Origin: Sanguibacter inulinus
GTDB taxonomy: Bacteria; Actinomycetota; Actinomycetes; Actinomycetales; Cellulomonadaceae
Length of the DNA: 48,185 nucleotides
Assembly: GCF_013415325.1 (NCBI RefSeq)
Contig: NZ_JACBYE010000032.1
Coordinates: forward strand, 1 to 48,185
Direction of reading: 5' to 3'
Below are positions 3,640 to 19,720 of the stretch, piece by piece. Every line of letters begins with the position of its first letter. The stretch's first letter is position 1. A program made the translations under genes and the position numbers. The notes under the pieces were generated by a model. The model ran no database searches and was not told the origin of the DNA. It saw nothing but the letters and a program-made list of their open reading frames with translations.

Positions 3640-4725
3640 TCAGCCCCGGCGGGCGCGAGAGGCTGCGGCGAGCTCGTGCAGCAGCTCCGCCGTGGTGTCC
3701 CAGTCGATGCACGCGTCAGTCACGGACTGCCCGTACACGAGCCCGCTCGGCGCAGGCTTCTGAGCACCGGCGACGAGGAAGCTCTCCATCATGATCCCGG
3801 AGATCCCGCGGTTCCCGGCGGCGACCGAGCCGGCGATCTCCCGGACGACCTCGGCCTGACGCACGTGCGACTTGCCGGAGTTGCCGTGGCTCGCGTCGAT
3901 GACCAGACGCCGGCCGAGACCCGAGGCCCCGACGACGTCGAGCGCGTCGGCGACCGAGGCGTCGTCGAAGTTCGGGCCCGAGCGACCGCCACGCAGGATC
4001 ACGTGGCAGTCGGGGTTGCCCGTCGTCGCGACGGCCGCGGCTCGGCCCTCGGAGTCGATCCCGAAGAACGTGTGCTCGGCGGCCGCCGTCACGCAGCCGT
4101 CGACAGCCGCCTGGACGTCACCGTCGGTGGCGTTCTTGAAGCCGATGGGCATCGAGAGGCCCGAGGCGAGCTGGCGGTGCACCTGGCTCTCCGGGTTCCG
4201 GGCGCCGATCGCACCCCACGAGACGGCGTCGGCGATGTACTGCGGGCTCGTCGGCTCGAGGAACTCGCAGGCCGCCGGGACACCCTCGTCGAGGACGCCG
4301 AGCAGGACCTCGCGGGCGAGGCGGAGCCCACGGTTCACGTCGAAGGACTCGTCCATGCCGGGGTCGTTGATGAGGCCCTTCCACCCGACAGTGGTGCGGG
4401 GCTTCTCGAAGTACACCCGCATGACGACGACGAGGTCGTCGGAGAGCTCCTGCGCGAGGGGCGCGAGGCGGCGGGCGTAGTCGAGTGCTGCGGCGGGGTC
4501 GTGGACCGAGCAGGGGCCGACGACGACGAGCAGGCGCTCGTCCGTGCCGTGGACGACGTCGCGGACGTCACCGCGGCTGCGCTCGACGAGCTCCGCGCTG
4601 CGCTCGGAGAGGGGCAGCTCGGCGAGCATCGTCGCCGGGGCGGGCAGCGGGTCGAGGGCGCGGATGCGCAGGTCGTTGGTGCTGTGAGCGTCGATGAGAG
4701 CGTCCAGTGACGAGTGGGCGGACAT
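3640..4725 (-). CDS. aroG: 3-deoxy-7-phosphoheptulonate (DAHP) synthase, class I
   Basis: First committed step of the shikimate pathway: PEP plus erythrose 4-phosphate gives DAHP, leading to Trp, Tyr and Phe. The 361-residue protein matches the class I AroF/G/H type: VVGPCSVHDP with metal-ligand Cys72, KPRTTVGWKG, GARNPESQVHRQ, DASHGNSGK with the metal-ligand His, and a C-terminal GQSVTD-CIDW segment. The regulatory N-terminal extension (about 1-45) is retained. ATG 4725 follows a purine-rich stretch (GGAG). A leader of about 245 nt upstream carries a short aromatic-codon ORF and a terminator, suggesting attenuation by aromatic amino acids. Which isozyme (F, G or H) cannot be told, so the symbol is approximate. 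Confidence 0.93.
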   Translation of the reverse strand: MSAHSSLDALIDAHSTNDLRIRALDPLPAPATMLAELPLSERSAELVERSRGDVRDVVHGTDERLLVVVGPCSVHDPAAALDYARRLAPLAQELSDDLVVVMRVYFEKPRTTVGWKGLINDPGMDESFDVNRGLRLAREVLLGVLDEGVPAACEFLEPTSPQYIADAVSWGAIGARNPESQVHRQLASGLSMPIGFKNATDGDVQAAVDGCVTAAAEHTFFGIDSEGRAAAVATTGNPDCHVILRGGRSGPNFDDASVADALDVVGASGLGRRLVIDASHGNSGKSHVRQAEVVREIAGSVAAGNRGISGIMMESFLVAGAQKPAPSGLVYGQSVTDACIDWDTTAELLHELAAASRARRG

Positions 4726-4835
4726 GGGGGCGGGTCTCCGTTCGGGGGTCTGACGAGGGCTGCGGCTGAGAGGGGGTGGTCTCAGACGGAGCCGTGCAGG
4801 CCACGAAGATCCGGGGTGCGGAGTCGGCCCGTCTG

Positions 4836-4876
4836 AAAAGACGAAGGACCCCGACGCGCGTCTGCGTCAAGGTCCT
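4836..4876 (-). terminator. Attenuator terminator in DAHP synthase leader
   Basis: Reading the minus strand, AGGACCTTGACGC (4876-4864) pairs with GCGTCGGGGTCCT (4857-4845) as 13 consecutive pairs including two U-G wobbles, closing a 6-nt loop. It is followed at once by UCGUCUUUU. This is the only terminator seen here with a real U-rich tail. It lies 110 nt before the aroG start codon and after the leader ORF, as expected for an attenuator. Confidence 0.75.
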
Positions 4877-4879
4877 GTG

Positions 4880-4936
4880 CTGGCTCCGGTGGTCGGTTGG
4901 TCAGGCGTACGCCCGCTCGGCCCCACCAGGAGCCAG
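4880..4936 (-). promoter_or_regulatory. Upstream hairpin overlapping the leader ORF (pause/competitor stem)
   Basis: CTGGCTCC-T-GGTGG (4936-4923) pairs with CCACC-GGAGCCAG (4892-4880): 13 pairs with one bulged U. The 5' arm begins at codon 12 of the leader ORF, two codons after the Phe codon, and the leader stop lies inside the loop. A ribosome stalled on the Trp/Tyr/Phe codons would mask the 5' arm. I could not identify a convincing antiterminator stem by eye. Confidence 0.6.
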
Positions 4937-4969
4937 CGTAAAGCGCAGATACCAACGATTTCCGGTCAC
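4901..4969 (-). CDS. Aromatic leader peptide (22 aa) for DAHP synthase attenuation
   Basis: A 22-codon ORF starts at GTG 4969 and ends at TGA 4901. Residues 6-10 read W-Y-L-R-F, putting all three aromatic amino acids within five codons (TGG TAT ... TTT), and Tyr21 adds a fourth. There is no Shine-Dalgarno sequence, but TAGCCT lies exactly 6 nt upstream of GTG, which fits a leaderless leader mRNA. The ORF overlaps the 5' arm of one hairpin and is followed by a U-tailed terminator, then aroG. An 82-codon ORF in another frame also covers this stretch and is probably chance. Function is inferred from arrangement; leader-peptide attenuation is known for actinobacterial trp and leuA genes. Confidence 0.65.
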   Translation of the reverse strand: MTGNRWYLRFTLAPGGAERAYA

Positions 4970-4975
4970 AAGGAG

Positions 4976-4981
4976 AGGCTA
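4976..4981 (-). promoter_or_regulatory. -10 box for leader/aroG transcript
   Basis: TAGCCT (TAnnnT) ends 6 nt before the leader GTG. No clear -35 is seen. Confidence 0.5.
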
Positions 4982-5059: not shown

Positions 5060-5458
5060 CTACCTCGTCCGCCGAGAAGCCGCCTCCACCAAGGCCTCAG
5101 CTGCTCGCAGCGCTGCACCACGGTCAACACTCCCGAGCAGACGCTCGCCGTAGTGACTGGCAGGTTTGAACGAGACGAGCTTCCTCAGGTGCTTGCCCAG
5201 ATCGCTGTCGACCCTGCCTAGGAGATCCGCGGCGCTGCGGTGATCTGTGCCTGAGTACCTCTCGCCCAAGGCTGACAGGCAGATCGCGTCGCCAGCGGCG
5301 ATGCCGGCGAGCACCGCGAGTCCGACACACACGTTGACCGTCGCGCCTTCCTCAGACTCGACGAGTCGAGCCACCTCTAGGTAGGTGCCAGCGATGCCTG
5401 CCCGCTTCTTGGCCTGTCCTCGATCACCAGGGCGCGTCGTCAGCTTCTTGGGAGTCAT
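5060..5458 (-). CDS. HEPN-domain protein (putative toxin of MNT-HEPN pair)
   Basis: A 132-residue, mostly helical protein starting MTPKKLTTRPG at ATG 5458. Its start overlaps the stop of the upstream nucleotidyltransferase gene (ATGA, 5455-5458), so the two are translationally coupled. It resembles small actinobacterial HEPN proteins paired with nucleotidyltransferases: an N-terminal helix AGTYLEVARLVES, a central AVLAGIAAGDAICLSALGERYSGTDHR segment, and a SHYGERLL motif. R-YSGTD-H fits the Rx4-6H catalytic motif of HEPN ribonucleases, though whether it is active is unknown. In characterised MNT-HEPN pairs the NTase neutralises the HEPN RNase by AMPylation. The frame is open to 5533, but that lies within the partner gene. 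Function is inferred from family and context. Confidence 0.7.
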   Translation of the reverse strand: MTPKKLTTRPGDRGQAKKRAGIAGTYLEVARLVESEEGATVNVCVGLAVLAGIAAGDAICLSALGERYSGTDHRSAADLLGRVDSDLGKHLRKLVSFKPASHYGERLLGSVDRGAALRAAEALVEAASRRTR

Positions 5459-6090
5459 CGCTCGCCCTCGCCGAGTGCGAGGACAAGTTCGCGCGGTCGA
5501 GGGCCGACCACGGTGCGCGCGTCCGCTGCCCACGTCGCCACGAGCGGTTCACCGGCCCGGACCACGGCGCGAAACCGTGTCATCGAGAGGACGAGCGTCT
5601 CGAGACGGTTACCCGTCCACCTCAAGACCTGGTCTTCGAGATCCTCTACCTGATCACTCCACCGGGCATCATGGATGTCCACCTCGTCATCGACGATCAC
5701 CATCAGGTCGATGTCGCTCGAGGCCGTCGCCTCGGCGCGAGCATGAGAGCCGAAGACTGAGACGTGGGCAGGAAGCGGGGCGAGACTCTCGCACCTCCGG
5801 GTCAACAACGAGAAGAACTCTTCGCCTGCGTTCATCGCCGCAAGGACCGCCGGCGCCAGGAGGTGCTCACGGTTGAGGCTGTACAGAGATCCTGTGTTGG
5901 ACTGCTCCGCACGCACCAGACCATGCTCGACCAGGCGGTTGAGTACCGCATGCTGTCCTGCGCGGGTCCCACGGCTGGACAGGCGGGCGATCTGGGTCGC
6001 GCTGAGACCTGACGCAGTACCCGCCAAGACTTCGAGCACAGCAGAGTCGAGGCTCGGGATCAGCGATCGCAGCGGGGCGGCAAGGTCCAT
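5455..6090 (-). CDS. Nucleotidyltransferase with N-terminal wHTH (MNT antitoxin-like)
   Basis: Residues about 15-85 form a winged helix (SATQIARLSSRGTRAGQHAVLNRLVEHGLVRAE) followed by a wing-like YSLNREHLLA. Residues about 105-200 form a minimal nucleotidyltransferase with the GSxARxxxxxxSDIDL signature (VFGSHARAEATASSDIDLMVIVDD), including the metal-binding Asp pair. The partner downstream is a HEPN protein with a 4-nt overlap. The built-in DNA-binding domain and the inverted repeats at its promoter suggest autoregulation. Starts at 6126, 6102 and 6090 are possible. I choose ATG 6090 because TTGACA (6124-6119) lies 17 bp upstream of CATGCT, which is 7 nt from this ATG. Confidence 0.75.
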   Translation of the reverse strand: MDLAAPLRSLIPSLDSAVLEVLAGTASGLSATQIARLSSRGTRAGQHAVLNRLVEHGLVRAEQSNTGSLYSLNREHLLAPAVLAAMNAGEEFFSLLTRRCESLAPLPAHVSVFGSHARAEATASSDIDLMVIVDDEVDIHDARWSDQVEDLEDQVLRWTGNRLETLVLSMTRFRAVVRAGEPLVATWAADARTVVGPRPRELVLALGEGER

Positions 6091-6153
6091 GCTCACGAGC
6101 ATGCAAGTATCTCTACACAGTGTCAACTATTTCGACGATGTGTAGAAATAGTT
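6088..6153 (-). promoter_or_regulatory. Promoter with three nested inverted repeats (MNT-HEPN operator)
   Basis: AT-rich island in a GC-rich genome. (1) Perfect 9-bp arms AACTATTTC (6125-6133) and GAAATAGTT (6145-6153) with an 11-bp spacer. (2) Arms TATCTCTACACA (6108-6119) and TGTGTAGAAATA (6139-6150) match in 11 of 12 positions. (3) CATGCTC/GAGCATG (6088-6103) is a perfect 7-bp repeat around two candidate start codons. A minus-strand TTGACA lies at 6124-6119. The likely binder is the wHTH of the downstream NTase. Confidence 0.65.
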
Positions 6154-18862: not shown

Positions 18863-19351
18863 GGTGGTCCTTCCGGGTGGTGCGCAGGTCTGTGCGCATC
18901 GAGGAGCAGCCGACGGCTGCGAGCGTGTGCTGTGAGGTGTGGGGGCGCGTCGTCACGGGCGCGGGGCCCGGGTCGTGCGTGGTCGCTGTCGTCAGGCGCC
19001 GCGGGGCGGGCCGTCGTCACGCGGAGGGCGTGGACAGGGAGAGCGGGGCGTGCGTGTCGCACGGCTGGTCACCGGGGTCGTCCCCGGTCCGGGTGGGTCG
19101 CCAGGTCAGCGACAGCACCCACCGGGCATCGACGACATCGAGGCGCTACGACAGCACATCATCGGGCGGCGCGGTGCGCAGGCCCGGGTGACGGTGGCGT
19201 AGGTCGAGGTGAACATGCCTCCATGATGGGGCGGCAGATGCGGGCAGCACCAATTGCTGGACCAGAAATCTCACGATGCGAACGTTTGAGCGGTCGCCTG
19301 CTGAGATGAACCCGGGCCAAGCTCGCAAAATGCCCGATCGGGCGCGCAAAA
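18863..19351 (-). other. 489-bp gap upstream of metQ; structured, no gene seen
   Basis: Minus-strand hairpins sit at 19071-19125, described separately. A 21-codon ORF starts at ATG 19224 (MEACSPRP...), with nothing beyond position to mark it as a leader peptide. I searched by eye for SAM-I and SAM-IV core sequences and did not find a convincing match. The 3' end of the SRP RNA with its TTTT lies at the far side. Confidence 0.5.
19071..19125 (-). promoter_or_regulatory. Tandem hairpins in metQ leader
   Basis: Minus strand: CCGGTGGG (from 19125) pairs with CCCACCCGG (to 19089; one C bulged), enclosing GTCGC-TGACCTG-GCGAC. It is followed directly by ACCGGGG-ACGA-CCCCGGT (19088-19071). They lie about 210 nt before the metQ start and 230 nt after ffs. 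They could be a regulatory leader or a late terminator for ffs read-through; no U-tract is present. Confidence 0.5.
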
Positions 19352-19439
19352 GACCCCCCGCACACCCATCAGAGCTCACCTGCCCTTGCTGCCTTCCGGC
19401 CCTGGGGGAGTTCAGTGAGATGACGCCGCACGAGGGGTC
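19352..19439 (-). ncRNA. ffs: Signal recognition particle RNA (small, 4.5S-type)
   Basis: The minus strand contains the conserved SRP tip CAGGGCCGGAAGGCAGCAAGGGCAG with the GGAA tetraloop and the asymmetric internal loop. The terminal arms GACCCC (19439-19434) and GGGGTC (ending 19352) pair to close the rod. At about 88 nt it matches the short actinobacterial form (Streptomyces scRNA is 82 nt). TTTT directly after the 3' end fits termination. It binds Ffh for co-translational membrane targeting. Ends are estimated to a few nt from pairing. Proximity to tRNA-Ser and dnaX is conserved in actinobacteria. Confidence 0.9.
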
Positions 19440-19635
19440 AGCCCCCAGGTTAACCCAGCCGCCCGCCGGGAGGTAAATCGGCCGCGCGCCAGACCGTGAC
19501 GAGGCCGAGACGAGGCCTCGACAGACCTTGTCGGGAGTGACCCCCACCACGTCCGACCCCGTCGAGGCCTCACGATTCGGCCCCACGGCAGATCGTCCGG
19601 TACTCTCGTGACGCTGGCCTCGGCCGGTGCGTGCT

Positions 19636-19720
19636 GGAGGATTCGCCTAGTGGCCTATGGCGCCGTCTTGGAAAGGCGGTTGGGTTAACGCCCTCGGGGG
19701 TTCGAATCCCCCATCCTCCG
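19636..19720 (+). tRNA. tRNA-Ser (anticodon GGA)
   Basis: The acceptor arms GGAGGAT and ATCCTCC pair, followed by discriminator G. The anticodon loop CTTGGAAAG gives GGA, reading UCC/UCU. A long variable arm (class II) and the T-loop GGTTCGAATCC are present. The length is 85 nt; CCA is not encoded. Confidence 0.95.

Follow-up and report, generated by a model that had tools for sequence, protein, structure and literature searches.

A short leader peptide that spells tryptophan (Trp, W), tyrosine (Tyr, Y), and phenylalanine (Phe, F), followed by an intrinsic terminator, was identified upstream of a class I 3-deoxy-D-arabino-heptulosonate 7-phosphate (DAHP) synthase gene in a 48,185-nucleotide (nt) stretch of Sanguibacter inulinus DNA (contig NZ_JACBYE010000032.1; the window hereafter). 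From sequence comparison and folding, the element is probably a ribosome-mediated transcription attenuator (probability about 0.78), and a shortage of aromatic amino acids most likely switches the pathway on. This reading builds on the conservation of the open reading frame (ORF), its aromatic content, both of its helices, and its terminator, together with the link to DAHP synthase. Aromatic biosynthesis begins with this enzyme, and the joint control of one gene by three end products is an old question that a conserved leader spelling all three aromatic residues makes testable. Several families of actinobacteria share the element, for which Rfam 15 gave no match.

In the window, the leader, the terminator, and the gene lie on the minus strand. 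The leader ORF (4901..4969) starts with GTG and comprises 22 codons (MTGNRWYLRFTLAPGGAERAYA), including the stretch RWYLRF, in which the Trp (TGG) and Tyr (TAT) codons occupy 4949..4954 and the Phe (TTT) codon occupies 4940..4942. A -10-like hexamer, TAGCCT (4976..4981), lies 6 nt 5' of the GTG. Hairpin I, as placed by folding, an arm swap test, and covariation, joins a 5' arm within the ORF (segment a, 4921..4937) to a 3' arm past the stop codon (segment c, 4879..4896). An alternative helix, P:Z, would join GUUGGU across the Arg-Trp-Tyr codons (segment P, 4951..4956) to ACCAAC past the stop codon (segment Z, 4896..4901). The terminator hairpin (4845..4876; folding and covariation) contains 13 consecutive pairs and is directly followed by the U-rich tail UCGUCUUUU (4836..4844), the end of which is 110 nt from the DAHP synthase ATG at 4725. 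A further hairpin III of conserved complementarity (4781..4837) is found 3' of the terminator, and the gene presumably controlled (3640..4725) encodes a class I DAHP synthase (TIGR00034, 484.6 bits; Pfam DAHP_synth_1). The predicted folding energy of the leader (134 nt) is -66.2 kcal/mol, compared to -50.3 +/- 4.1 for shuffled sequences, and none of the 200 shuffles folded as well. The ORF, the hexamer, and the terminator with its spacing had been described in an earlier, sequence-only reading of this DNA, and all were borne out by the sequence and the fold. Its hairpin I started within one or two bases of the position found here, which is the third base of the codon that follows Phe. It had been given 13 pairs, and the minimum-energy fold has approximately 16 pairs with one bulge.

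A class I DAHP synthase was present in 102 of the 221 Cellulomonadaceae genomes analyzed, and the leader was found at 98 of the 104 upstream regions of this gene, corresponding to 98 of the 102 genomes. The six places where the leader was missing were two extra copies of the gene, both in one genome that has the leader elsewhere, and four genomes that were 65-79% complete, two of which had less than 500 nt of upstream sequence. A covariance model (R1) was built from 50 of the 98 family leaders, which match it by construction. Among 220 family genomes it returned 98 matches with E-values of at most 5.4e-19, in the same 98 genomes, with the next match at 6.2e-7. On the basis of this conservation (98 of 104), a chance ORF was rejected. 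The three aromatic residues were retained despite changes in their order and spacing, and the leaders of group g10 lost one Trp and retained the other. The leader is hence conserved beyond chance, and the proposal of a Trp-Tyr-Phe leader peptide and terminator before DAHP synthase, for which an alignment of the ORF and its aromatic codons in close relatives had been suggested as a check, found support. In addition, a TAnnnT motif ended 6-8 nt 5' of the start codon in all 98 family leaders, which leaves no space for a Shine-Dalgarno sequence, so the leader is probably translated from a leaderless start.

Leaders of this type were also observed outside the family. A search of 396 genomes of the order with R1 gave 27 non-family matches with E-values of at most 1.2e-6; one of the order-level matches (G318, 4.2e-7) was left out of the reading, and all of the 26 that were read precede a DAHP synthase (26/26). 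Five weaker matches (L239-L243, E-values of 1.8e-6 to 2.4e-5) resembled, by eye, ordinary terminators or tRNA genes, and the count of R1 matches was accordingly limited to those stronger than about 1e-6. From a protein-similarity sample of 80 actinobacterial loci, which included no named Corynebacterium locus, 34 were checked, and the leader was present at 24, including Isoptericola chiayiensis (L002) and Puerhibacterium puerhi (L003). The other 22 were from Streptomyces, Tsukamurella, Mycobacterium, Mycolicibacterium, Williamsia, Dietzia, Gordonia, Rhodococcus, Nocardia, Antrihabitans, Amycolatopsis, Glycomyces, Catellatospora, Kribbella, Paractinoplanes, and Micromonospora. The leader filter was negative at the remaining 10 of the 34 loci (L008, L009, L012, L013, L016, L018, L019, L021, L031, and L074). 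A second covariance model (R2) gave 58 matches with E-values of at most 1e-4 in 57 of the 394 genomes of the class searched: four were already in the set, 47 were read, and seven class-level matches were left out. For 38 of those read, the downstream gene encodes a class I DAHP synthase; the nine others lie before other genes, three of which were assigned by Pfam as DAHP-synthase-like (L277), chorismate mutase (L288), and Trp/Tyr-type tRNA synthetase (L282).

W, Y, and F were all found within residues 2-14 in 144 of 146 leaders. The core itself varied, including 83 leaders with WYWRF, 14 with WYAYF, 12 with YWRF, seven with YFWF, and others such as FYW and WFSY; hence, an aromatic composition is conserved rather than one sequence. 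Among 36 further DAHP synthase leaders, 19 contained all three residues, 16 had no W, and one had no F within the counted residues. One ribosome pause site per aromatic acid, as previously put forward, is plausible as a hypothesis.

A strict use of U-ending Tyr and Phe codons, rare in the neighboring gene, was a puzzling feature of the leaders. The family leaders contained 98 TAT and no TAC codons, and 96 TTT and one TTC, while the 22 distant leaders contained 22 TAT and one TAC, and 23 TTT and seven TTC. Both sets came from a protein pattern, whereas leaders collected with covariance models are biased to the letters of the model. The opposite preference was observed in 30 DAHP synthase genes (TAT 2, TAC 139; TTT 12, TTC 189). 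A single tRNA usually decodes both Tyr codons, and likewise both Phe codons, so the bias would not be explained by selective isoacceptor charging. The codon bias of attenuation leaders is discussed in the available text of PMC1183508.

Pairing was tested in 41 representative leaders, approximately one per genus. Eight leaders without a clear U-tailed terminator (from Rhodococcus, Nocardia, Amycolatopsis, and Antrihabitans) were dropped, as were L228, L229, and L232, where the terminator finder picked a wrong or extended hairpin; the 41 still include L165 with a wrong terminator call and L005 and L233 with extended ones. In 50 family leaders, whose alignment was not fitted to the structure, 96.7% of the terminator cells were paired, and 28 cells had changes on both sides, compared to 4.0 in shuffles. 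In 53 wider sequences, changes on both sides occurred at all 12 of the 12 pairs; this alignment had been fitted to the model, a procedure that favors the structure. The tail was U-rich and imperfect. An intrinsic terminator thus separates the leader from the DAHP synthase gene, as in an attenuator.

Hairpin I was near-invariant and without covariation in the family, while between families its two arms changed in step, including a CG to UA change at one pair in 10 of the 53 sequences and arm variants seen by eye such as GCUGGCU/AGCCAGC, GUCGGCU/AGCCGAC, and GUUGGCU/AGCCAAC. The compensatory changes to be sought in both stems were present in the family for the terminator, and for hairpin I they appeared between families and not within the family. 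In 38 of the 41 leaders, the cognate arms of hairpin I gave better pairing than swapped ones, and this hairpin overlaps the ORF such that a stalled ribosome could disrupt it. The helix P:Z, between the Arg-Trp-Tyr region and bases past the stop codon, crosses hairpin I. It was better than swapped partners in 36 and better than shuffled partners in 38 of the 41, with segment P poorly placed in L176, L226, and L233. Its letters differed by family, for example GUUGGU...GGCG with CGCC...ACCAAC, and GUUGG.AUGCGU with ACGCAUCCAAC. Within Cellulomonadaceae, P:Z had nine double-change cells compared to 2.0 in shuffles, and the three pairs so changed were matched by 71 of 500 shuffles. In the leader of the window the helix was average, with a better score than shuffled partners and not than swapped ones. 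As judged from these changes, the crossing helices hairpin I and P:Z coevolve.

Under the attenuator model, the transcript would start at or within one or two bases of the leader start codon, as the -10-like box suggests, and a ribosome would load on the bare 5' end and then decode the three aromatic codons. With ample charged tRNA for Trp, Tyr, and Phe, it would reach the stop codon, hairpin I and then the adjoining terminator would form, and transcription would end near 4836. When an aromatic acid is short, a ribosome pause on the cognate codon would alter the choice between the two crossing helices: a pause at Phe would block hairpin I directly, while a pause at Trp or Tyr would block P:Z. 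More RNA polymerases would then be expected to read through into DAHP synthase.

The model resembles known systems to different degrees. In Escherichia coli trpL and pheL, ribosomes that stall at end-product codons govern a terminator through an antiterminator, and the leader is initiated from a Shine-Dalgarno sequence; unlike these, the leader described here looks leaderless, and no antiterminator was found. The Corynebacterium glutamicum aroR-aroF attenuator, for which the primary study is reportedly that of Neshat et al. in 2014, appears closer. According to the available text of PMC4046766, a leader with Phe-Tyr-Phe lies 5' of aroF, and in the accessible part of a review (PMC11802643) the ribosome is described as stalling on it under Phe limitation, with Tyr having no effect. 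In the part of PMC7356990 available, control of aroR is by Phe and Tyr and is described as translational. As far as these sources describe it, aroR likewise places an aromatic leader peptide 5' of a DAHP synthase gene, while the leaders here mostly add Trp; the comparison with aroR is one of published descriptions. By this analogy, the best reading would be a wider, mostly tri-aromatic variant of the aroR-aroF type of attenuator.

A leaderless leader peptide had been considered unusual for attenuation, which is contradicted by seven of eight Streptomyces lividans leader peptides and the C. diphtheriae ilvB leader, described as leaderless in the available texts of PMC8079986 and PMC5784534. As presented there, S. 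lividans trpL, ilvL, and leuL and C. diphtheriae ilvB share with the present element a leaderless short ORF with regulatory codons, followed in several cases by hairpins and a U-rich stretch. They differ in amino acids and genes, and none of the eight leaders in the available part of PMC8079986 precedes a DAHP synthase. In the LEU element of actinobacterial leuA, as outlined in the accessible text of PMC1262725, regulatory codons also join an RNA helix, there with the Shine-Dalgarno sequence of leuA and here with a segment past the stop codon. In contrast to LEU, no pairing of the aromatic codons with the Shine-Dalgarno sequence was seen here (P with it was better than shuffled in 14 of the 41). 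For Phe and Tyr operons, the available portion of the same 2005 survey of actinobacterial RNA regulation reported no conserved upstream structures (PMC1262725). A literature search, with most subscription journals beyond its scope, found no description of such a leader outside Corynebacterium.

Several observations weigh against the attenuator model. Its sensing half appears well supported by the sequences, while the switching half is one that we infer. Under an assumed ribosome footprint that begins at the A-site codon and spans about 12 nt, stalls at Trp or Tyr in the leader of the window miss the 5' arm of hairpin I, which is covered by the Phe stall only. Trp is not universal, as the 16 of the 36 further leaders without W comprise 14 in family f38 (mostly RRYPYF) and two in f45. 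The terminator 5' arm paired with upstream sequence no better than swapped or shuffled controls among the 41 leaders, and no convincing antiterminator was found in the sequence of the window by folding, covariation, or swap tests, in agreement with the sequence-only reading, where none had been visible by eye. In folds of transcripts cut before the terminator 3' arm, shuffled arms equaled real ones (real better than shuffled in 20 of 41).

Termination control without a visible antiterminator is thus a puzzle. For 35 of the 41 leaders, the terminator 5' arm paired upstream to a greater extent in the cut-transcript folds with the ribosome stalled at Phe than with it stalled at the first aromatic codon, and a weak or kinetic antiterminator may exist. 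Two specific candidates were rejected. The c:d pairing (GCC:GGC), good in family folds and averaging 4.3 pairs with a stall at Phe and 5.3 with a stall one codon later in folds of 64 leaders, and the P:d pairing from ribosome-free folds both failed the covariation, swap, and shuffle tests. RNAalifold on prefixes returned local hairpins only.

The footprint result would suit a leader that senses Phe alone through its last aromatic codon, with the Trp and Tyr codons kept since their RNA pairs in P:Z. This is a serious contender that we nevertheless place below even odds. The P:Z comparisons with swapped and shuffled partners and its double changes in the family, at few pairs as noted, agree with it, as does the reported response of C. 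glutamicum aroF to Phe and not Tyr, with Phe and Tyr both named in the other source. However, W, Y, and F were retained in 144 of 146 leaders while their order and the surrounding letters changed, and the g10 leaders dropped one Trp and retained the other. Under the same footprint, stalls at the earlier aromatic codons would block P:Z. Along with the attenuator model, a tentative and somewhat more doubtful proposal is that a widespread actinobacterial RNA element reads all three aromatic acids in one leaderless peptide in a position-coded manner, with early codons acting on P:Z and the last on hairpin I. It would do so without a classical antiterminator, perhaps with segment c moving between a and a segment f past the terminator, and the codons would be re-tuned before other genes of the aromatic pathway (Phe without Trp at the DAHP-synthase-like gene, Tyr at the Trp/Tyr-type tRNA synthetase gene).

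Control of the translation or stability of the DAHP synthase mRNA, rather than of termination, is unlikely. Here, the position of the ribosome would determine the partner of c (a or f), and hairpin III would shift along. The c:f complementarity was better than shuffled in 37 of the 41 leaders, hairpin III (f1:g) in 30 of 37, and the terminator tail with f1 in 31 of 41; in addition, the eight leaders dropped from the tests have a hairpin but no clear U tail, and aroR is termed a translational regulatory leader peptide in the available text of PMC7356990. On the other hand, c:f was better than swapped partners in just 27 of the 41, the terminator was changed on both sides at every pair, and little pairing with the Shine-Dalgarno sequence was found (better than shuffled in 23 of 41 for f..g, 26 for the last48 segment, 14 for P, and 18 for a), though 10 of the 41 a pairings ranked among the best 10% of shuffles, compared to about four expected. 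Sequestration of the Shine-Dalgarno sequence by f or g was likewise unsupported by the pairing tests. Finally, it is highly improbable that the conserved feature is a protein- or tRNA-binding structured RNA and the ORF is incidental, a view in line with the high nucleotide conservation, synonymous sites included, but at odds with the retention of start, frame, stop, and aromatic residues while codons come and go and the order of W, Y, and F changes, and with the lack of an Rfam match. At gathering scores, the window matched only the bacterial small signal recognition particle (SRP) RNA and a tRNA in Rfam 15, both outside the leader, and six leader loci had no match at E-values of at most 1; hence, no T-box or riboswitch was called.

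Among the leaders read in the class, L277, L278, L283, L285, and L286 carry one or two Phe without Trp and similar hairpins 5' of a short DAHP-synthase-like gene, which was assigned by Pfam for L277 only and by eye for the other four. L279 and L284 also have related leaders. The minus strand of L282 carries, at approximately 150-330 from the 5' end, an ORF resembling a leader (VLTRRVYPNGSGVS...); it has a TAnnnT 5' of its start and is followed by a hairpin and then by the Trp/Tyr-type tRNA synthetase gene. Aromatic leaders (YFWF, YWF) with hairpins at DAHP synthase, without a clear U-tailed terminator, were seen at L023, L025, L026, L030, L032, L034, L039, and L065; these leaders possibly reflect a different control mode.

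Besides the class I gene, a different contig of the same genome encodes a type II DAHP synthase (L244, G000:C109:28163-29470; TIGR01358, 666.6 bits). Just 5' of the leader, the ORF at 5455..6126 on the minus strand encodes a nucleotidyltransferase-like protein with a weak match to the MntA antitoxin (NF047752) and PADLOC matches to PDC-M05A and PDC-S09. Its small partner at 5060..5533, also on the minus strand, had no match in NCBIfam, Pfam, or PADLOC, and the two are possibly a toxin-antitoxin or defense pair. Of the two Rfam matches in the window, the small SRP RNA lies at 19346..19442 on the minus strand and the tRNA at 19636..19720 on the plus strand.
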